Source: Desulfocapsaceae bacterium (GTDB lineage Bacteria; Desulfobacterota; Desulfobulbia; Desulfobulbales; Desulfocapsaceae). Taken from it: DNA of 64,000 nt. A program made the position numbers and the translations under genes. Below, piece by piece: positions 45,326-56,118 of this stretch (positions within the stretch are counted from its first letter, which is position 1; the number at the start of each line of letters is the position of its first letter). Under the pieces are notes generated by a model. The model was not told the DNA's origin, made no database searches, and saw nothing but the letters and a program-made list of their open reading frames with translations. Location of the stretch: assembly GCA_030653035.1 (NCBI GenBank), contig JAUSAB010000072.1:1-64000 (forward strand), given 5' to 3'.

Positions 45326-46450
45326 TTATAACGATACATTAAAGGTGAGCACAAAATCTTGAACAGCACGAGCGAAAACATCCACAGTTTCTTTATCAAA
45401 CTGAGAACCAGAATGCAGTTGCAGTTCACAGAGTGCTTCCTCCATGTTCAAATTTCGACGATAATTTCGCCTTGAAGTCATGGCATCATAACTATCCACC
45501 ACCACAAGAATCTTGGTCAACTGATCCAGCTCATCTCCCTTCAGACCATCAGGATATCCTTTACCATCCATACGCTCATGATGATGCCGGATAATAAACT
45601 GTTCCCGCTCCATAAACCCTAAAGGTTGAATAATATTAGCACCAATAACCGGATGTTTTCTGATAAGTATCCACTCATCGTCGGTTAGTTTTCCCGGCTT
45701 CTGAATACAGGAAAGATCTATCACCAGTTTGCCGATATCGTGAAACTGGGCCGCCCGCCGCAACACCACCAGTTCTTTTTCTGGTAAATCCATAGCCAGA
45801 CCAAGCATCAAAGCATACTCTGTTACTCGCATGGTATGACCAGCGGTATAAAAATCCTTTTCCTCCATGGCGTTCTGGAGACTACTCATCAACTGAACCG
45901 TTGCATTCTCCAGACTGTGACTATAGGTAAGTAAAAGCCTGTTCGTCTCTTCCAGTTCTTTTGTCTTACTCTGAACCTCCTGTTCCAGAGAGGTTTTATA
46001 TTGTCTTTCCCGAAGAACAAAGGATCTTTTCTCAATGGCCCGTCGAATTTTGACATTAAAAATATCAAGATCCTCAATGGGTTTCGTTAAAAAATCATAT
46101 CCCCCAAGATTAATCGCTTGTACCACATATTCCATGGAACCAGCGCCAGTCAAAAACAAAACCGGAATATCATACTGACGGGAGTTCAAAACCTTAATGG
46201 TTTCAAAACCTCCCATGTCCGGCATATTAATGTCGAGAATGATCACATCATAGGAATCATCAATCACCTCAATAACATCTCTACCGTCGGCAACAGTTTT
46301 TACTATATGACCAAACATCTCCAGTACCGTAGACACTGTGGTCCGAACCGTGACGTCGTCATCTGCGAGTAATATTTTTGCCTTTTTTCCTTCCAAACTA
46401 AGTCCCTCTCGAAAGTTTAATTCAACATCAACATACGAAAGCATTTCCAT
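45326..46450 (-). CDS. Response regulator with HD-GYP phosphodiesterase domain
   Basis: A 374-residue two-domain protein: an N-terminal receiver (about residues 25-140, Asp in VIILDINMPDMGG, Lys in FLTKPIED), a coiled linker, and a C-terminal HD-GYP domain with HDIGK and HHERMDGKGYPDGL. HD-GYP proteins degrade cyclic di-GMP. The ATG at 46450 lies 5 bases after the upstream deacetylase stop. No kinase partner is adjacent. Confidence 0.92.
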   Translation of the reverse strand: MEMLSYVDVELNFREGLSLEGKKAKILLADDDVTVRTTVSTVLEMFGHIVKTVADGRDVIEVIDDSYDVIILDINMPDMGGFETIKVLNSRQYDIPVLFLTGAGSMEYVVQAINLGGYDFLTKPIEDLDIFNVKIRRAIEKRSFVLRERQYKTSLEQEVQSKTKELEETNRLLLTYSHSLENATVQLMSSLQNAMEEKDFYTAGHTMRVTEYALMLGLAMDLPEKELVVLRRAAQFHDIGKLVIDLSCIQKPGKLTDDEWILIRKHPVIGANIIQPLGFMEREQFIIRHHHERMDGKGYPDGLKGDELDQLTKILVVVDSYDAMTSRRNYRRNLNMEEALCELQLHSGSQFDKETVDVFARAVQDFVLTFNVSL

Positions 46451-46455
46451 AGAGC

Positions 46456-47520
46456 TTACATTTTCCAATATTTTTTTGCAACCTCCCATGCTTGATGAAT
46501 GGCTGGATGCAATGATTTTTCGCGGCTCAGACGCGTAGCCGTATCATCATCCAGATTAGTCAGATATCCAGTATCAAGCACACGGCCAGACAACTCCCCA
46601 AGAACAGCCAGTATCCCATCACGCTGTCCCTCAAGATTATATCCACCCTCCAAAGTCATCAACAAATGCCCATCACAGACCTCTTCAGCCAGTCGCACCA
46701 GGGTTCTGGTTAGATAGGCAAATCCTAAAGCGGTCACCTCCATTGTCCCCAAGGGATCACCTCGATAAATATCAAATCCGGCAGAAACAAGAATGAGTTG
46801 CGGTTTATATTCACGGCCAATGGGAACGACCAGATCATCAAATATAGTAGTGTAATCCACATCTCCCTGATATCCAGGCAAAGGAACATTTATCGTAAAT
46901 CCCTCTCCCTTACCCCGGCCGGTTTCCTTCAGGGAACCGGTCCCGGGATAATAAGGATACTGATGCGTGGAGAGATAGAGAACTTTCTCACTCTCATAAA
47001 ACGAATGCTGGGTTCCATTGCCATGGTGCAGATCCCAGTCCACTATCATCACTTTTTCGAGACCAAGAACCTGTGTTGCATAATGGGCGGCAATAGCCAC
47101 ATTGTTAAACAGGCAAAACCCCATCGACTGGTTTTTTTCCGCATGATGACCTGGGGGCCGCACCAGAGCAAAACCATTATCAATCTCTTTTGCCATTAAC
47201 ATATCAACCCCTTTAATCAGGGCACCCACCGCAAGACAGGCAGCAGCATAGGAGTCCGGTGAGGTATGGGTGTCCGGGTCAAGGGTATCAAAAATCTTGC
47301 CGGCAGTCTCGGAAACCCTGGCAAGAAGGGATTCTGAATGATTTAAACCGATAACTGCATGGGATGCCGGGCTGAAGTTCGGTTCCAAAAAACAGCCAGA
47401 AAACTCCCTACCATCAAGAAGTTGATAAATACCTTTCAATCTTTCCGGAGACTCCACATGATCAAAGCCAGGATCATGATCTAAAAAAAGTGGATCTCTA
47501 AACACTGCTGTTTTTCGCAT
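46456..47520 (-). CDS. Histone-deacetylase-family amidohydrolase (acetoin-utilisation type)
   Basis: A 354-residue zinc-dependent deacetylase. Motifs RPPGHHAEKNQSMGFCLFNN, VDWDLHHGNGTQ and the zinc-binding Asp/His, then SAGFDIYRGDPLG and LEGGYN are complete. Substrates could be acetylpolyamines or acetyl-CoA synthetase-type proteins; sequence alone does not decide. It is followed almost directly by the HD-GYP regulator. Confidence 0.92.
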   Translation of the reverse strand: MRKTAVFRDPLFLDHDPGFDHVESPERLKGIYQLLDGREFSGCFLEPNFSPASHAVIGLNHSESLLARVSETAGKIFDTLDPDTHTSPDSYAAACLAVGALIKGVDMLMAKEIDNGFALVRPPGHHAEKNQSMGFCLFNNVAIAAHYATQVLGLEKVMIVDWDLHHGNGTQHSFYESEKVLYLSTHQYPYYPGTGSLKETGRGKGEGFTINVPLPGYQGDVDYTTIFDDLVVPIGREYKPQLILVSAGFDIYRGDPLGTMEVTALGFAYLTRTLVRLAEEVCDGHLLMTLEGGYNLEGQRDGILAVLGELSGRVLDTGYLTNLDDDTATRLSREKSLHPAIHQAWEVAKKYWKM

Positions 47521-47544: not shown

Positions 47545-48129
47545 CTATCGAATTCCTTGAATCATTCTTTTTTCGGTAACCACCAGATCAAGCAACTCAT
47601 CATGGGCCTGTAAAGACAATCTGTTAACTACCTGAAAATCAAAGGCCAGACCAATTCGTCTGGCTTGTGGCGCTTCATGAGCCATGAAACGATCATAATA
47701 GCCGCCGCCATAACCCAACCTGCCACCCCGCTCATCAAAAACAGATCCTGGCAAAAGAATCGTCTCTATCTCACGACCAGATACCATGTGATTTTTTCTG
47801 ATCGCCAATCGTGGTTCCGGTATGGAACAATAACCGGGCACAAGATCTTTTTCCACATTAGTAATTGCCACCGGGAGCAATCTCTTCTCCATGACCAAGG
47901 TAAGTGGAACAACCACCCGCTTGCCCTGCTTCAGAAGTTCAGCTATCAGGATATGGGTCTCAACCTCGGAGCGAAAATCAACATAAACAAAAAGAGTTTC
48001 ACTGGCTGCAATCTCCTCAAGAAGAAGCAGTTTTCGCGTAATTTCACAACTCATAGATTGACGTTCCTGAATATGCAGTTCATCACGAACATTAAGGGTT
48101 TTCTTTCGTAAAAGAGAAGAATTGTACAA
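47545..48129 (-). CDS. 5-formyltetrahydrofolate cyclo-ligase
   Basis: Converts 5-formyl-THF to 5,10-methenyl-THF. About 194 residues, with LLRKKTLNVRDEL near the start, FVYVDFRSEVET, then the C-terminal LLPGSVFDERGGRLGYGGGYYDRF motif. A TTG start at 48129 is chosen: AAAGG lies seven bases upstream, and a longer ATG reading to 48162 would run through the terminator hairpin of the upstream transporter gene. Confidence 0.9.
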   Translation of the reverse strand: MYNSSLLRKKTLNVRDELHIQERQSMSCEITRKLLLLEEIAASETLFVYVDFRSEVETHILIAELLKQGKRVVVPLTLVMEKRLLPVAITNVEKDLVPGYCSIPEPRLAIRKNHMVSGREIETILLPGSVFDERGGRLGYGGGYYDRFMAHEAPQARRIGLAFDFQVVNRLSLQAHDELLDLVVTEKRMIQGIR

Positions 48130-48154
48130 GAATGCACCTTTGTTAAAAACAAAA

Positions 48155-48190
48155 AATCGCAACCCCTGTATTCACAGAAGTTGCGATTAA
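48155..48190 (-). terminator. Intrinsic terminator after the YeeE/YedE transporter gene
   Basis: On the minus strand AATCGCAAC (48180-48188) pairs with GTTGCGATT (48155-48163) around a 16-base loop, followed by TTTTGTTTTT. It sits 32 bp after the transporter stop. Confidence 0.8.
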
Positions 48191-48219: not shown

Positions 48220-49461
48220 TCACATGGGCACGATCAACTTATTTGTATCCTCATTCCAGGTTACCACCAGATACCAGATCATCATAATGGCAGCAATAAA
48301 AAATAAGGTCCCGCCGTATCCCATAACATCTGGCAGATATACCTTAGAACCAAGAAGACCCTTAGCCTCAAAATCCCCAGCCCTAAACCAGGCAGTCATG
48401 ATCGAATTGGAAATAGCGAAGAAAGGAACAACCATCATTAACTTTACCTGTCCTTCCCCTACACGCCACAACGTGCCAGAACCACACCCACCTGCAAGCA
48501 TAGCACCCAGACCAAAGATAAAACCACCAACAATCGAACCCCAACCAAAAGTTCCTCGTACATAATTAGCAGGATCAAGAACGGCAACCCCATCAGCCCG
48601 AAGCGGAACGGAATATTTCAATACAGCCGCACCTATAGCCACTATCACGATAGAAAGAATTACAGATTTGGCAAGAGTACAATCTCCAGTCATATGTGGT
48701 TCACGGAACCCCTGGGTCATACACCAACGACCACGATGCATGACATATCCCAAAGCGGCGGCAATAACAATAACCCCACTCAATGTCGCTATCTTCCCAT
48801 TAGTACTTCCTGCAAAACTGTATGCCCCCCAGAAAACACCAACCATGGCAGCGACACCTAACAGATAAACAAGCACTGTAGGCAACTCTATTGTGGCAGA
48901 ACCACCATCACCCCAGGTTATATACTCCATCTCAAGATACAAGAGCTTCAAACCTAAAAGAACTCCTGCTACCAAACCTATCCACATGGTAAAGCCGTTG
49001 GCCGCCAGATTACCAATGGCATTGTAGAAACCACCCACATTACAACCACCAGCCAGCGTTGCTCCAATCCCCATTATAATTCCGGCAATGACAGCCTTGA
49101 CCATCTCCCGATACGGAGGAATGCGAAAAGCAAAATCCTTCCCAAGACAAGCGGAAATAAAAGCACCAGCTATCAAACCAATACCAATAACAGACCCGGA
49201 ATCCTGTAATATAGATTTAGGAGCTGTTCCATAATAGCTAAAAATACCAGAACTTGATCCTGTAAGACTGGTTATTCCATACATAATCCAGTCTCCCCAA
49301 TTTCTAATAGCCCCAACGGCCCCCCATGGCCGCCACCACGCCATGATCATAACAGATAAAAAGGCAACTAAAACACCGGTTACCGTGCCATTCCACTCTG
49401 ACTGACACAGGGTTTTATAAAGCTCTTTGACTTTACCACCCATCACATTTTCTTCACTCAT
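48220..49461 (-). CDS. YeeE/YedE-family sulfur-compound transporter
   Basis: An integral membrane protein of 413 residues with about 10-12 hydrophobic segments. It has the two family signature motifs GATLAGGCNVGGFYNAIG and GAMLAGGCGSGTLWRVG, whose cysteines relay thiosulfate or related sulfur species in characterised YeeE. The ATG at 49461 follows a GGGAGGGGG ribosome site. It is divergent from tusA across a 343-bp promoter region. Selenium-linked YedE relatives share the motifs, so the substrate could be sulfur or selenium; context favours sulfur. Confidence 0.9.
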   Translation of the reverse strand: MSEENVMGGKVKELYKTLCQSEWNGTVTGVLVAFLSVMIMAWWRPWGAVGAIRNWGDWIMYGITSLTGSSSGIFSYYGTAPKSILQDSGSVIGIGLIAGAFISACLGKDFAFRIPPYREMVKAVIAGIIMGIGATLAGGCNVGGFYNAIGNLAANGFTMWIGLVAGVLLGLKLLYLEMEYITWGDGGSATIELPTVLVYLLGVAAMVGVFWGAYSFAGSTNGKIATLSGVIVIAAALGYVMHRGRWCMTQGFREPHMTGDCTLAKSVILSIVIVAIGAAVLKYSVPLRADGVAVLDPANYVRGTFGWGSIVGGFIFGLGAMLAGGCGSGTLWRVGEGQVKLMMVVPFFAISNSIMTAWFRAGDFEAKGLLGSKVYLPDVMGYGGTLFFIAAIMMIWYLVVTWNEDTNKLIVPM

Positions 49462-49666
49462 GTCTCCCCCTCCCTCTTTTTTTATCAAAAAAATCGTGCA
49501 AAACAGCATTAAATATGAAACAAATTTTGTTTACTCTTGCAAATAACTTTTGTCAAGCATCCAAAAGATAAAAGGTGTTTTCCTTTGCCATTTTTTTGAC
49601 TATTGTTTGAATAAATACAAACAATTACAAATACTAATAAGACGTGAATAACCATTCATTTTGCCC

Positions 49667-49695
49667 TTGACAGATAGCCTTTGCTAAAGTATAGC
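49667..49695 (+). promoter_or_regulatory. Sigma-70-type promoter for the tusA operon
   Basis: TTGACA (49667-49672), 17-bp spacer, TATAGC (49690-49695). A near-consensus promoter with ideal spacing, about 110 bp upstream of the tusA start, leaving a roughly 100-base leader. Confidence 0.7.
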
Positions 49696-49754
49696 TTAAA
49701 AAATGTTGACATACTCAGGTTAATAATGAGTCCTGAATATGTATTTCTTGTTTC

Positions 49755-49776
49755 AAGTATAAAAATTTTTATACTT
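49755..49776. repeat. 22-bp perfect palindrome in the tusA leader
   Basis: AAGTATAAAAA followed directly by its exact complement. Position between the predicted promoter and the ribosome site (GGAGG at 49792-49796) makes it a candidate operator or leader structure. It is not followed by a T-run. Confidence 0.7.
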
Positions 49777-49804
49777 ATATAACCTTTAATTGGAGGAAAA
49801 CAAA

Positions 49805-50062
49805 ATGAGTGACTTTAAAGTTGCCCCAGACGGACTGGCAGTAGCAGCTACACTTGACGCAAAAGGATTAAGTTGTCCAATGCCCCTTCTCCGTACCAAA
49901 AAAGAGATTGGAAAAATTAAATCTGGTGAAATATTGCAGGTTGACGGTACCGATCCCGGTTCCCGCAATGATCTTCCAGGTTGGTGTTCCCGTGGAGGAC
50001 ATGAATATCTGGGTGAGAAAGAGCAATCTGGCTTCATGAGCTTTTTTATAAAAAAAGGTTGA
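49805..50062 (+). CDS. tusA: TusA-family sulfur carrier protein
   Basis: An 85-residue TusA/SirA/YeeD-type protein. The catalytic Cys is C24 in the SCPMPLL (CPxP) motif, and a second Cys lies in GWCSRGG. It carries persulfide sulfur between sulfurtransferases. The ATG at 49805 follows GGAGG with normal spacing. It is the first gene of a four-gene run divergent from the transporter, the YeeE-TusA pairing seen in thiosulfate uptake and in sulfur-disproportionator genomes. Confidence 0.92.
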   Translation: MSDFKVAPDGLAVAATLDAKGLSCPMPLLRTKKEIGKIKSGEILQVDGTDPGSRNDLPGWCSRGGHEYLGEKEQSGFMSFFIKKG

Positions 50063-50106
50063 TTTGTTATCATTTTCGTATTTTTTCTTAACGGAGGATA
50101 AACCTA

Positions 50107-50439
50107 ATGTCTGCTGATCCAAATAAATTTGCTATTTTTGTAAATTCTGCTCAAAATATGCGACACGTCGTTGGTATTGCCAATGCTGCTGAAAAAGCTG
50201 GGAAAAAACCAATGGTTTTCTTTACCTATAAAGCAATTCATCTCACTAAAGATCCTCGTTTTAAAGCTTTGGCAGAAATGTGCGGTGAAGAAAATATAGC
50301 TATCTGTGCCGATAGTTATACCTGTGAAGGATATGATTCCGTTGCTGATATTCCTGCAGGATTATCAGTTAAACAAATGAGAACTCAAGCTTTTCATGGC
50401 GCTCAGCTTGAAGAGTGCGGCAATTATATTGTTTTATAA
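50107..50439 (+). CDS. DsrE-family sulfur-relay protein
   Basis: A 110-residue DsrE/DsrF-like protein with the Rossmann-like pattern FAIFVNSAQNMRHVVGIANAAEKAG and KPMVFFTYKAIHLT. Cysteines are present in EMCGEENIAICADSYTCEG, of which the CADSYTC pair aligns with the region of the active-site Cys of DsrE-like proteins. GGAGG precedes the ATG. Likely accepts sulfur from TusA. It is not the classical dsrEFH set, since no DsrF or DsrH is adjacent. Confidence 0.85.
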   Translation: MSADPNKFAIFVNSAQNMRHVVGIANAAEKAGKKPMVFFTYKAIHLTKDPRFKALAEMCGEENIAICADSYTCEGYDSVADIPAGLSVKQMRTQAFHGAQLEECGNYIVL

Positions 50440-50450
50440 GGAGTAAAAAA

Positions 50451-50810
50451 ATGGAAACATTAAAAGTATATTTTCTAATAGCTAATCGTATGTACGGTGA
50501 CGGTGTTCGCTCTGGTTTAGGATTGGCTGTTGAAAATCATTATGCCTTTCCAGTTATTATGAAAGGAGAGTTTCCTCCTTTTTCTAAGTATATGAGCGAT
50601 AATATTGCTTGGGTTAAGGATATGGAAGGACAGGTTTATTCCTGTGGCGCACCTGCTCCTGATAATTGTGTGGATGAAGAGGGAGATAAACTTATTGCCG
50701 AAATTTCTTTGGAAGAGTTGGGAGAGGCCATGCGGGATGCTGATTATATTATTCCTTATGGTCTTCCTAAACAAACCAATGAACCACCACCTTCTTGTTC
50801 TGCTGCATAA
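50451..50810 (+). CDS. Small cysteine-containing protein in the sulfur cluster (DsrE-like?)
   Basis: A 119-residue protein I cannot firmly place. The start (KVYFLIANRMYGDGVRSGLGLAVENHYAF) has a beta-loop-alpha pattern like DsrE-type proteins. Cys occurs in YSCGAPAPDNCVDEEG and as a Cys three residues from the C-terminus (CSAA), a position used as a swinging-arm cysteine in some sulfur carriers. GGAG precedes the ATG. A role in sulfur relay is inferred from context. Confidence 0.65.
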   Translation: METLKVYFLIANRMYGDGVRSGLGLAVENHYAFPVIMKGEFPPFSKYMSDNIAWVKDMEGQVYSCGAPAPDNCVDEEGDKLIAEISLEELGEAMRDADYIIPYGLPKQTNEPPPSCSAA

Positions 50811-50827
50811 TTAAAGGAGTATATATA

Positions 50828-51001
50828 ATGAAAATTTTACAAGTGTATCGTTCAGAGCCAAATAGCGATATAAAAACACTGGTTGGAATATTAAACAGAG
50901 ACCGTGATGCAGATGAATTCTATCTGAATGTTGAAAATCCAGACTATGATTTGTTAGTTTCTAAAATAATTGCTGCTGATAAGACTGTTTGTTGGTGGTA
51001 A
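50828..51001 (+). CDS. 57-residue protein at the end of the sulfur cluster
   Basis: A very small protein starting MKILQVYRSEPNSDIKTL and ending KTVCWW, with a single Cys near the C-terminus. A GGAG ribosome site precedes the ATG, and an intrinsic terminator follows 28 bp after the stop, so it is a real operon member. No family recognised; the C-terminal Cys between aromatic residues suggests a redox or sulfur-binding role, which is a guess. Confidence 0.65.
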   Translation: MKILQVYRSEPNSDIKTLVGILNRDRDADEFYLNVENPDYDLLVSKIIAADKTVCWW

Positions 51002-51075: not shown

Positions 51076-52185
51076 TTAAAGGGAACACAAGCAACGCATA
51101 ACTGTATTATGAAAAAAAGGTCTAAATTTTTTAATTAACTCATTTTTTTTACTCGGATGTACCCTGTTTGTTAACAAAACAACAAGAAGTTCCTTTTGCG
51201 GATCTATCCAAAAAGATGTCCCGGTAAACCCAAGATGACCAAAACTTGATGCTGAAAAAAACTGGCCACTACTTGATCCCGTTACAGATGGTGTATCAAA
51301 ACCAGATGTCCAACCAAATCTTCCCTCTTTTGTTACAGCCTTTCTTAAGTTTTCGTTTCCATAAGATGGATGATTACTTCTTCCTTTAACCTGGGAAAGT
51401 AAATGTTCACACCATTGAACAACACCTTCTATTGTCCCAAAAAGACCAGCATGACCTGCTACTCCACCCATTGCTCGACAATTATCATCATGAACCATGC
51501 CTGAAAGCATTTTCCCTGTCCATGGACATTTCTCGGTTGCAGCATAAAAATATTCTCGTTTTTCTTTTTGTGCAAAAACAAGTTTGTTTTGTAAAAGAAG
51601 AGGTTTGTATATTTTTTCTTTTACATATTCATCAAGACTTTTCCCTGATATTTTTTCAATAATAAAACCTAATAATATAAAACCTAAATCACTATATACA
51701 ACATCTGTTCCTGGCATATATATTAATTTTTCTTGTAATATCCAGGTAAATAATAATTTTCTTTTTTCAATATCTGTCTGTTTTAATAATTGGTTATAAT
51801 ATTCATTATGAGCAGGTAATCCTGAACAATGTGACATTAAATTTTTTATTGTTATTTGAGATTTATCTTTTGGAATTTCATCTTGAAAAATTTTAGCCAG
51901 ATTTAAATTCCATGATATTTTTTTTTCTTCCATTAAAGACAATAAAGCTGGAATTGTAGTTAATACTTTTGTTAATGAAGCGAGATCAAAAAAAGTATCT
52001 TTAGTAAGTTTAATCGTCTCTGGATAAGTTTGAGCTAAACCATAATAATATATGTTTCTATCATAATTATTTCCATTCCATAAAGAAATTCCTATTGCTG
52101 CCCCTGGAAACACTTTTTTATCTAATGCATATGAAAAAATTGTATAAAGTCTTTGACTTAAACTGTTTTTTTTAATAAACATCAC
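51076..52185 (-). CDS. Serine hydrolase of the beta-lactamase (class C-like) fold
   Basis: A 369-residue penicillin-binding-protein-like hydrolase. The catalytic Ser and Lys are in LASLTKVLT (SxxK), YSDLGFILLG supplies the Tyr motif, and HLGFTGTSFWID contains the third (H/K-T-G-like) motif. There is no signal peptide, so it appears cytoplasmic. Very A/T-rich codon use, like dnaN beside it. Substrate unknown: relatives include esterases and D-aminopeptidases. Confidence 0.85.
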   Translation of the reverse strand: MMFIKKNSLSQRLYTIFSYALDKKVFPGAAIGISLWNGNNYDRNIYYYGLAQTYPETIKLTKDTFFDLASLTKVLTTIPALLSLMEEKKISWNLNLAKIFQDEIPKDKSQITIKNLMSHCSGLPAHNEYYNQLLKQTDIEKRKLLFTWILQEKLIYMPGTDVVYSDLGFILLGFIIEKISGKSLDEYVKEKIYKPLLLQNKLVFAQKEKREYFYAATEKCPWTGKMLSGMVHDDNCRAMGGVAGHAGLFGTIEGVVQWCEHLLSQVKGRSNHPSYGNENLRKAVTKEGRFGWTSGFDTPSVTGSSSGQFFSASSFGHLGFTGTSFWIDPQKELLVVLLTNRVHPSKKNELIKKFRPFFHNTVMRCLCSL

Positions 52186-52479: not shown

Positions 52480-53610
52480 ATGGCACTTAATTGTAATATT
52501 GCAAAAAATATTTTTCTTGATGCATTGAATGCAATTCAAAATATAACCAATAAAAAAGGTACATTGGCTATTATTTCAAATATTCTTATAGAAACAGATA
52601 ATAATAATATATTCCTCACAGCTACTGATCTTGAGGTTGGTCTTAAAATTAAAATTCCTGCTGAAATAAAAGAAATTGGTAGTTTAACTCTTCCGAGTAA
52701 AAAAATATTTGAAATAGTTAGAGAATCTGGTTCTGATTTAATTTCAATTGAGGAAACTAAAAATAGTTGGGTTATTATTAATGCCGGACTAAGTACTTAC
52801 AATCTTGCTGGAATGCCCAGTGATGAATTTCCTGAATTTCCTGAATTTAATGAAGAAACATTTATATCCTTTGATGCTCATGTATTTTCAGAACTTATCG
52901 ATAAAATTATTTATTCCATAGCTTCTGAACAAGAAAATAATTATTTATTAACCTGTGTTCTTTTTGAAAAAGAAAAACGAGATAATAAATCCTATATACG
53001 AATGATTTCATCTGATGGTCATCGTTTATCAATTATGGAAAAAGATGTTACTACAGATGTAGATAATCTTAATATTAATGCAATGACCCTTATTCCAAAA
53101 AAAGGAATTCAGGAAATTAAAAAATTTTGTGAAAATCGTGATAATGTACTTATTTCTTTTGAAGAAAAACAACTTGTAATAAAAGATGAAAATGCCATTA
53201 TGGTTATTCGTCTCAAACAAGGAGAATTTCCTCCATACAGAGCTATTATTAATGCTGTACAACTGCAAAATAAAATTAAAATTAACAGGGTACCTTTTTT
53301 AGAATCTTTAAAACGTATAAATTTATTTACAGAAGATATTTTTCATACCATTCAATTAGAGATAAGAGATGATAAAATGATATTATCATCACAAAATGCC
53401 AGTATAGGTAATGCAAAAGATGAACAACCAATAATTTATAATGGTGAACCCCTAATTCTTGGTTTTAATTGTCGTTTTTTTATAGAAACCCTGCAAGTTA
53501 TGGAATGCGATACTGTAGATGCCTATATAAATTCAAATAATAGTCCATGTCTTTTAAAATCAGATTTCGATGAAGGATTTTTAAGTATTATTATGCCAAT
53601 ACAACTTTAA
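52480..53610 (+). CDS. dnaN: DNA polymerase III beta subunit (sliding clamp)
   Basis: A 376-residue sliding clamp with the three-domain fold. The N-terminal pattern TNKKGTLAIISNILIET, the central MISSDGHRLSIME motif and the C-terminal IIMPIQL ending (compare VVMPMRL) identify it. GC content is very low (22-25% in sampled lines). It is normally next to dnaA and recF near the origin; here it is followed directly by gyrB with no recF. A terminator hairpin lies 30 bp after its stop. Confidence 0.96.
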   Translation: MALNCNIAKNIFLDALNAIQNITNKKGTLAIISNILIETDNNNIFLTATDLEVGLKIKIPAEIKEIGSLTLPSKKIFEIVRESGSDLISIEETKNSWVIINAGLSTYNLAGMPSDEFPEFPEFNEETFISFDAHVFSELIDKIIYSIASEQENNYLLTCVLFEKEKRDNKSYIRMISSDGHRLSIMEKDVTTDVDNLNINAMTLIPKKGIQEIKKFCENRDNVLISFEEKQLVIKDENAIMVIRLKQGEFPPYRAIINAVQLQNKIKINRVPFLESLKRINLFTEDIFHTIQLEIRDDKMILSSQNASIGNAKDEQPIIYNGEPLILGFNCRFFIETLQVMECDTVDAYINSNNSPCLLKSDFDEGFLSIIMPIQL

Positions 53611-53640
53611 TAAAAGTAATATAATATATTGTTAATATTA

Positions 53641-53676
53641 AAAATATCCATTCATACTTCATGAATGGATATTTTT
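53641..53676 (+). terminator. Intrinsic terminator between dnaN and gyrB
   Basis: A perfect 15-bp stem (53641-53655 with 53661-53675), 5-base loop, ending in TTTT. It overlaps an in-frame ATG of gyrB at 53665, which is why the GTG at 53704 is taken as the gyrB start. Confidence 0.8.
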
Positions 53677-53703
53677 ATTTTAATTAAAAAAAGGATAAAA
53701 AGA

Positions 53704-56118
53704 GTGACAGAAGAAAACAAGGCATATGGGGCAGAACAGATAAAAGTTTTGGATGGTTTAGAAGCTGTTCGCAAAAGACCCTCAATGTATATTGGTAATA
53801 CTGCAGAATCAGGACTTCATCACCTTATATGGGAGGTAGTTGATAACAGCATAGACGAAGCCCTGGCAGGTTATTGCACCAAAATTCATGTAATAATCCA
53901 TGAAGATAATTCAATATCAGTTGAAGATGATGGACGGGGAATACCCGTTGACATGCACCCAACTGAGAAAATATCGGCCTTGGAATTGGTTATGACTACA
54001 CTCCATGCTGGAGGAAAATTTGATCATTCTTCTTATAAGGTTTCAGGTGGACTTCATGGAGTAGGTGTTTCTGTTGTAAATGCCCTTTCTATAAAAGCCA
54101 GTGCTGAAATAAAACGTAATGGTAAAATTTATAGGCAGTCTTACCAATATGGAGAAAAAGTTGGTGAATTGGAAATAATAGGTGAAAGTACAACAACAGG
54201 AACTCGCATCACTTTTAAACCAGATCCTGAAATATTCAGCGAAACAACAATATATAATTATGAAACTATTAATAATAGACTCCGAGAATTGGCTTATCTT
54301 AATAAAGAAATTCATATTTATATAAAAGATGAAAGATCAGGCGCTGAGGATACCTTCTATGCAGAAGGAGGTATAAAATCTTATGTTGAATATCTAAATA
54401 GAAAAAGAACTCCAATTACTCCAGAACCTATCTTTATTTTTGGTGAAAAAGATATGGTCCAGGTTGAAATAGCCTTTCAATATTTTGATGGTTACACCGA
54501 AAGACTTTTTTCTTTTGTAAATAATATCAATACAAGAGAAGGTGGAAGTCATGTGGTAGGATTTCGGGCAGCTCTTACTAAATGTATCAATCGTTATGCC
54601 AGTGATGATATTATTCCCAAAAATTTAAAAGAAAAAATGAGTGGGGATGATATGCGGGAAGGTCTTACCTGTGTTATCTCTGTTCGTGTACCTGATCCTC
54701 AATTTGAAGGACAAACAAAAACAAAACTGGGAAATTCCGAGGTAAAATCTATTGTTGAATCTGTGTGTTCAGAAAAATTAACTATCTATCTTGAACAAAA
54801 TCCACAAGAAGCCAAAAAAATTCTCATTAAGGTAGTTGAGGCTGCAAGGGCTAGAGAAGCAGCTAAGCGGGCCCGAGATCTTTCACGGAAAAAAGGATCA
54901 ACGAGTCTGCTAATGGCTGGTAAATTGGCAGAATGTCAGGAAAAAGATCCAAGTAAACGAGAAATTTTTATTGTTGAGGGTGATTCTGCAGGTGGATCAG
55001 CAAAACAGGGAAGGGATAGATCTATCCAAGCTATTCTTCCTTTGCGCGGTAAAATTATGAATGTGGAGAAGGCACGATTTGACCAGATACTGGGTAGTGA
55101 AGAAATAAAAAATCTTATTGGAGCATTGGGCTGTGGTATTGGAAAAGATGAATTTGATGTTGAAAAATTACGCTACCATAAAGTGATAATTATGACCGAT
55201 GCGGATGTGGATGGTGCTCATATCCGAACCCTTCTCCTTACCTTTTTTTATAGGCAAATGCTGCCTCTTGTTGAAGGTGGTTTTGTTTATATAGGTCAAC
55301 CACCTTTGTATAGACTTGGTAGAGGAAAAAAAGAAAAATATTTTTTAGAAGATAAAGAATTAAATGATCATCTTTTTAATGAAGCTAGCCAAATAATAGA
55401 GATTAAAACAGAAGGAACGGAAGATATATTACTTTCCGGGGATATCCTTGTGGAAAAATTAAGAAAACTTTCTTTTTATAAACAAATTGTTTCTTATCTT
55501 GATAGGATGAATATATGGGAAGATATGCTTTATTTTCTTCTTGAAAATGATGTGCATTCGGCAGATCAATTTACTGATGAAACATTTTTAAAAGGACTTA
55601 TTGCTCAGCTTTCCAGTGAAAAACTAACCATTGGTCCCATTCGATTCTGTCGATGGCGACCAACTTGTTATGAGGTTGATATTTCTATAAAAGGAAAGGC
55701 CCATATTATAACAACATTAGGACCTGGTATTCCCCTTATTCATGAGTATAGAAATGCAATTGAGCTTTTTCCATCTATTCGTGCATATTTAAAAGGAATT
55801 TTTACCATTGTAAAGAAATCCACCAGCGGTCAGGATAAAGGTATTCAAGTTAACGACTGGAGTGAAATGATACAAATGGTTCGAAGTGAAACCTTTAAAG
55901 GAAGTCATCTTCAGCGTTATAAAGGTCTTGGAGAAATGAATCCTGAGCAACTTTGGGATACTACAATGAATCCTGAAAATAGAGTTCTTGTACAGGTAAC
56001 TATCAATGATGCTGAACAGGCTGATGATATGTTCACTACCCTTATGGGAGATAAAGTAGAACCGAGAAGAGAATTTATCCAGAATCATGCCTTAGAGGTA
56101 ACTTCTCTGGATATTTAA
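53704..56118 (+). CDS. gyrB: DNA gyrase subunit B
   Basis: ATPase subunit of DNA gyrase, 804 residues from a GTG start. The N-terminal GHKL ATPase has EVVDNSIDEALAG, DDGRGIPVD and GGLHGVGVSVVNALS; the TOPRIM domain has FIVEGDSAGGSAKQGRD and IMTDADVDGAHIRTLLLTFF. The C-terminal GEMNPEQLWDTTMNPE motif is present. AAGGA lies eight bases before the GTG. The start VTEENKAYGAEQIKVLDGLEAV fits the family. GC is low but higher than dnaN. Confidence 0.96.
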   Translation: MTEENKAYGAEQIKVLDGLEAVRKRPSMYIGNTAESGLHHLIWEVVDNSIDEALAGYCTKIHVIIHEDNSISVEDDGRGIPVDMHPTEKISALELVMTTLHAGGKFDHSSYKVSGGLHGVGVSVVNALSIKASAEIKRNGKIYRQSYQYGEKVGELEIIGESTTTGTRITFKPDPEIFSETTIYNYETINNRLRELAYLNKEIHIYIKDERSGAEDTFYAEGGIKSYVEYLNRKRTPITPEPIFIFGEKDMVQVEIAFQYFDGYTERLFSFVNNINTREGGSHVVGFRAALTKCINRYASDDIIPKNLKEKMSGDDMREGLTCVISVRVPDPQFEGQTKTKLGNSEVKSIVESVCSEKLTIYLEQNPQEAKKILIKVVEAARAREAAKRARDLSRKKGSTSLLMAGKLAECQEKDPSKREIFIVEGDSAGGSAKQGRDRSIQAILPLRGKIMNVEKARFDQILGSEEIKNLIGALGCGIGKDEFDVEKLRYHKVIIMTDADVDGAHIRTLLLTFFYRQMLPLVEGGFVYIGQPPLYRLGRGKKEKYFLEDKELNDHLFNEASQIIEIKTEGTEDILLSGDILVEKLRKLSFYKQIVSYLDRMNIWEDMLYFLLENDVHSADQFTDETFLKGLIAQLSSEKLTIGPIRFCRWRPTCYEVDISIKGKAHIITTLGPGIPLIHEYRNAIELFPSIRAYLKGIFTIVKKSTSGQDKGIQVNDWSEMIQMVRSETFKGSHLQRYKGLGEMNPEQLWDTTMNPENRVLVQVTINDAEQADDMFTTLMGDKVEPRREFIQNHALEVTSLDI

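Follow-up and report, generated by a model that had tools for sequence, protein, structure and literature searches.

A DsrEFH type II cluster linked to YeeE and TusA in a Desulfocapsa-like member of Desulfobulbales

The closest described counterpart of the locus considered here comes from cable bacteria, in which a DsrE-like protein and two hypothetical proteins were modelled as a DsrEFH-like heterotrimer (PMC13293266, published in 2026). The complex of Candidatus Electronema aureum GS was expressed in that study and its subunits co-purified at 1:1:1. Sulfur was transferred in vitro in both directions between TusA and DsrE of E. aureum in a Cys67-dependent manner, the transfer being lost in the Cys67Ser variant, and passed in vitro from DsrEFH to DsrC. 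The same variant still gave sulfur to DsrC, which the authors explain as unspecific, and thiosulfate failed to persulfidate the E. aureum proteins. An independent group obtained a DsrEFH-like structure for this complex and argued that it is a DsrEFH analogue supporting disproportionation, with a DsrH-II that has no Cys20 (PMC13047784). The genomic region was equated in PMC13293266 with the YTD cluster and named DsrEFH type II. PMC8780430 describes the YTD cluster as tusA together with relatives of yedE and dsrE and two genes for conserved hypothetical proteins (Umezawa et al. 2020, cited there and in PMC9751629). Its role is a matter of published dispute between sulfur oxidation and disproportionation.

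Five genes and the identity of the small proteins

The window (the whole stretch of 64,000 nucleotides that was analysed) holds the five open reading frames of a YeeE/YedE–TusA–DsrE cluster at 48220–51001. A yeeE/yedE-type sulfur transporter gene on the minus strand (48220–49461; 413 aa; PF04143, E ~4.9e-45) is divergent from tusA, dsrE and two small genes, which confirms the gene content and positions of the original prediction, and its recognition of a YTD cluster was likewise correct. The most likely start of yeeE, as judged by comparison, would be the ATG at 49461, behind GGGAGGGGGAGAC, rather than 49509, because the E. aureum homologue begins at the matching MSE. The other four genes run head to tail on the plus strand at 49805–51001 with small gaps. 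The first of them, tusA (49805–50062; 85 aa), encodes a sulfur carrier with a CPMP motif containing Cys24 and a clear PF01206 match (E 9.5e-23), as clear as the Sulf_transp match of YeeE in Pfam. Linked to tusA and yeeE are three adjacent syntenic genes at 50107–51001: dsrE (50107–50439; 110 aa), with the predicted sulfur-accepting residue Cys67, followed by the genes for a 119-residue protein (50451–50810) and a 57-residue protein (50828–51001). The divergent intergenic region (49462–49804) probably contains the promoters of both units, to judge from its position; in a promoter scan of the cluster that included this region, sigma-70-like sites were no commoner than in shuffled sequence. Rfam returned only tRNAs in the window and no riboswitch in the cluster leaders. 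On the minus strand at 48155–48188, just 3' of yeeE, a stem of 15 pairs and a T-run behind it resemble the terminator of this gene.

The two small genes had been regarded as extra to the cluster and as having no assigned function. Both are already part of the five-gene definition in PMC8780430, and the second view is out of date, as the proteins have been described as DsrF and DsrH (PMC13293266, PMC13047784). The E. aureum GS locus is among the relatives' matches of our species-wide scan, and its proteins are 67% (YeeE), 82% (TusA), 81% (DsrE), 70% (DsrF) and 81% (DsrH) identical to those of the window. DsrE residue 67 is a cysteine and does not vary among the 15 aligned proteins. General-purpose profiles recover little of this relationship: PF02635 matches of DsrE (E 0.064) and the 119-residue protein (E 0.14) fall below the Pfam cut-off, the 57-residue protein has no Pfam match, and profile searches with DsrE, DsrF and DsrH against PDB sequences gave chance matches only. 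The structural model of the 119-residue protein (pLDDT 87) has a sole PDB match at E ≤ 0.001 among 350,542 chains, 2hy5_B. 2HY5 is the DsrEFH complex of Allochromatium vinosum, and its chain B is DsrF. The TM-scores of 0.50–0.55 in the fold search indicate fold-level, not close, similarity. The 57-residue protein was modelled with pLDDT 94, and its fold search yielded nothing significant, the protein being too small for an informative match; the name DsrH is a putative one, resting on orthology and position. The 119- and 57-residue proteins are the DsrF and DsrH of DsrEFH type II, with a role already published, and the cluster as a whole is an ordinary, already known sulfur-handling set of sulfate-reducing and cable bacteria. 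Two unannotated small genes gain in this way a name and a testable role in a Desulfocapsa-like lineage.

The gene for the 119-residue protein is present in 31 of 38 relatives' genomes, and the order tusA–dsrE–119–57 is kept in all 30 relatives' loci fetched. A wider scan, with one genome per species over 84,980 species, yielded 240 stretches that were confirmed to be relatives; in the best 80 of these, all of them named loci, the order tusA–dsrE–dsrF–dsrH is found without exception, dsrH always lying 3' of dsrF. The position of yeeE is more variable in the same 80 loci: it is divergent in 48, co-directional in 26 and not found in six, some of whose contigs end nearby. Because the order holds in all loci inspected, the two small genes are constant components of the cluster, and their conservation identifies them as genuine genes, not chance frames. 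The case envisaged in the original prediction, in which the small genes would be absent from other YeeE–TusA loci, is rejected by their presence in 80 of 80.

The genes flanking the cluster encode a beta-lactamase/PBP4B-like protein (51076–52185) and a 5-formyltetrahydrofolate cyclo-ligase (47545–48162). Both also adjoin the E. aureum cluster (L067, 3716–5526) in a different arrangement, and the neighbourhood is therefore partly conserved. Just downstream of the cluster, dnaN and gyrB (52480–56118) suggest a place near the replication origin; the search for exact DnaA boxes in the window gave one match only, no more than expected by chance. A bacterial histone-deacetylase-family protein (46456–47520; PF00850, E 2e-92) is encoded next to an HD-GYP-type response regulator (45326–46489).

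A putative sulfur relay and its alternatives

The host is a Desulfocapsa-like member of Desulfobulbales, and its genome is 99.99% complete. It carries dsrA, dsrB and dsrD (PF08679) in a row. Location of dsrD beside dsrAB marks the reductive type, and the adjoining dsrD is our reason for calling the host dsrAB putatively reductive. DsrC ends in GKGACKMAGLPKPTGCV, with both C-terminal cysteines present, DsrK and Sat are encoded, and aprB–aprA is followed by an HdrA-like frame that is probably QmoA; the DsrEFH-II cluster thus shares the genome with dsrA, dsrB, dsrD, dsrC and dsrK. The genome further contains a match to ammonia-forming nitrite reductase and no match to heme-copper oxidase. Four other PF02635 proteins are encoded, each on a contig of its own, so there is no sign of a type I dsrEFH operon. 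AprB at L119 (945–1364) is just 139 aa long; a truncated C-terminus of this protein is a proposed, unvalidated marker of disproportionation (PMC8170396).

What could be the function of the cluster in this setting? In the best reading, which we hold with considerable confidence, it encodes a sulfane-sulfur relay from YeeE through TusA and DsrEFH-II to DsrC. YeeE would carry sulfane sulfur, derived from polysulfide or possibly thiosulfate, over the inner membrane; TusA would take it up as a persulfide on Cys24 and pass it to Cys67 of DsrE within the DsrE–DsrF–DsrH heterotrimer; and DsrEFH-II would hand it to DsrC, which would supply the DsrAB pathway. Running oxidatively, the pathway would release the sulfur as sulfite, then as sulfate via AprBA/Qmo and Sat. 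Oxidative operation of reductive-type DsrAB is described as unproven at the enzyme level (PMC13293266). The relay would serve whichever net metabolism the host has, be it the oxidation of sulfur or the oxidative branch of a disproportionation. It is supported here by the gene content, the orthology, the active-site residues, the DsrF fold and the downstream enzymes in the genome. The steps from TusA to DsrC would follow those demonstrated in vitro with the E. aureum orthologues, and it is the biochemical testing of that orthologous, same-order set (PMC13293266) that lends support to the relay, while the substrate of the transporter, the direction in vivo and the physiology of the host are our inference.

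A second reading, suggested by the original prediction and in line with the first proposal of the YTD cluster, makes the cluster a dedicated disproportionation module with which the host disproportionates S0 or thiosulfate. All five YTD proteins are more abundant in Desulfolithobacter dissulfuricans under thiosulfate disproportionation than under sulfate reduction (PMC9751629), PMC8780430 cites a report of its consistent presence in disproportionators without sulfate reduction, and the nearest named relatives of the window include Desulfocapsa MAGs. Against it stands the distribution of the cluster, which is not restricted to disproportionators. In a survey of 160 genomes of the order, each at least 90% complete, the gene for the 119-residue protein occurs in 142 genomes and 51 of 56 genera; the survey counts this gene alone, which linkage checks show to travel with the set. 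All surveyed genomes have dsrA matches, 153 of them above the cut-off. The complete five-gene set is also found in Desulfogranum mediterraneum DSM 13871 (L078), the type strain 86FS1. Table 1 of PMC9751629 records a negative result for this species with both sulfite and thiosulfate as substrates of disproportionation and reports nothing on S0. The genes occur in cable bacteria and many sulfate reducers, and of 63 cultured disproportionators only 25 have them and 38 lack them (PMC13293266). The possibility that the five-gene set is common in bacteria that do not disproportionate, named in the original prediction as the case against it, is thus largely borne out by the near-universal presence in the order and by D. 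mediterraneum, and the step from cluster to disproportionating host is unsupported. We therefore regard the module reading as doubtful. The cluster is unsafe as a genomic marker of disproportionation in Desulfobulbales, an order that carries it almost throughout. Desulfocapsa is a genus with known disproportionators, and the host may well disproportionate in view of its relatives; the cluster itself neither shows nor excludes this.

In a third reading, YeeE and TusA form a TsuA/TsuB-like thiosulfate uptake system. Thiosulfate would be split on TusA and its sulfur taken over by DsrEFH-II, chiefly to be assimilated or released as sulfite. YeeE of the window is related to the TsuA structures 6leo and 8j4c, and it retains all three cysteine motifs, with Cys140 in GGCNVG, Cys247 in RGRWC and Cys326 in GGCGSG; the role of the three cysteines in TsuA has been described (PMC11582611), and an acceptor role of this kind is proposed in PMC13047784. 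The halves of the protein, however, stand in the opposite order to those of TsuA/YeeE, the N-terminal half aligning with the second half of PF04143 and the C-terminal half with the first, and the protein is collinear with the YedE/FdhT model. The window TusA fits the TusA model (54 bits) far better than TsuB/YeeD (18 bits), both scores lying below the curated cut-offs. The failure of thiosulfate to load the E. aureum proteins (PMC13293266) leaves the imported species uncertain and favours polysulfide-like sulfur, yet the window YeeE keeps the motifs of a thiosulfate transporter. We consider this third reading unlikely. A second, unlinked YeeE/YedE-family transporter of ~380 aa is encoded elsewhere in the genome (G000:C72:48978-49982, L001).

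A last reading, in which the small genes are passengers without relation to the cluster or are no genes at all, would be favoured by their want of any Pfam or NCBIfam match above cut-off. It is refuted by the identical arrangement in all 80 named loci, the strong conservation of the small proteins and the DsrF-like fold of the 119-residue protein, and retains practically no probability.

Two lineages of DsrEFH type II

In a tree of DsrE and DsrF, two lineages separate within the order with a support of 1.000. The genus of the window clusters with cable bacteria and Desulfobulbus, and five other genera of its family are placed in the other lineage. A C-terminal PPxC cysteine of DsrF is present in the lineage of the window and absent from the other. 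One genome of the same genus (G006) carries two DsrEFH-II clusters, one from each deep lineage (L118 on G006:C53 and L007 on G006:C31). Elsewhere in the order, several genomes likewise have two DsrF matches. The pattern is compatible with transfer or with an ancient duplication followed by unequal loss, and the three published type II subtypes may correspond to the lineages. If the two deeply split lineages differ in substrate or direction, the genus of the window, holding the lineage of cable bacteria and Desulfobulbus where most sampled genera of the family hold the other, may, in the manner of cable bacteria and unlike its family, be an oxidiser of sulfide or polysulfide. We put this forward as a speculation with a small chance of being right.

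Comparison with known systems

The E. aureum GS cluster (L067) resembles the locus most closely, with the same five genes in the same order, a divergent yeeE, 67–82% identity and Cys67. The two differ in that the window comes from a Desulfocapsa-like host within the order, not from a cable bacterium, and in that the window DsrF has an extra cysteine (Cys73) and a middle loop longer by four residues. The YTD cluster of disproportionators is identical in its five-gene content and differs only in the diagnostic link to disproportionation, which is not upheld here.

Type I DsrEFH of A. vinosum (2HY5) shares with the window the fold of the F subunit and the catalytic cysteine of DsrE. The E, F and H proteins of the window have no detectable sequence similarity to PDB chains, with PF02635 below cut-off, the window DsrH is much shorter (57 aa), and the genome carries reductive-type dsrABD. 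Assignment of the cluster to type I was rejected for want of sequence similarity to canonical DsrEFH. TsuA/TsuB (YeeE/YeeD) has in common with the locus the transporter family, the cysteine motifs and an adjacent protein of the TusA fold; the window departs from that system in the swapped, YedE-like order of the YeeE halves, in a TusA-like carrier and in the attached DsrEFH-II.
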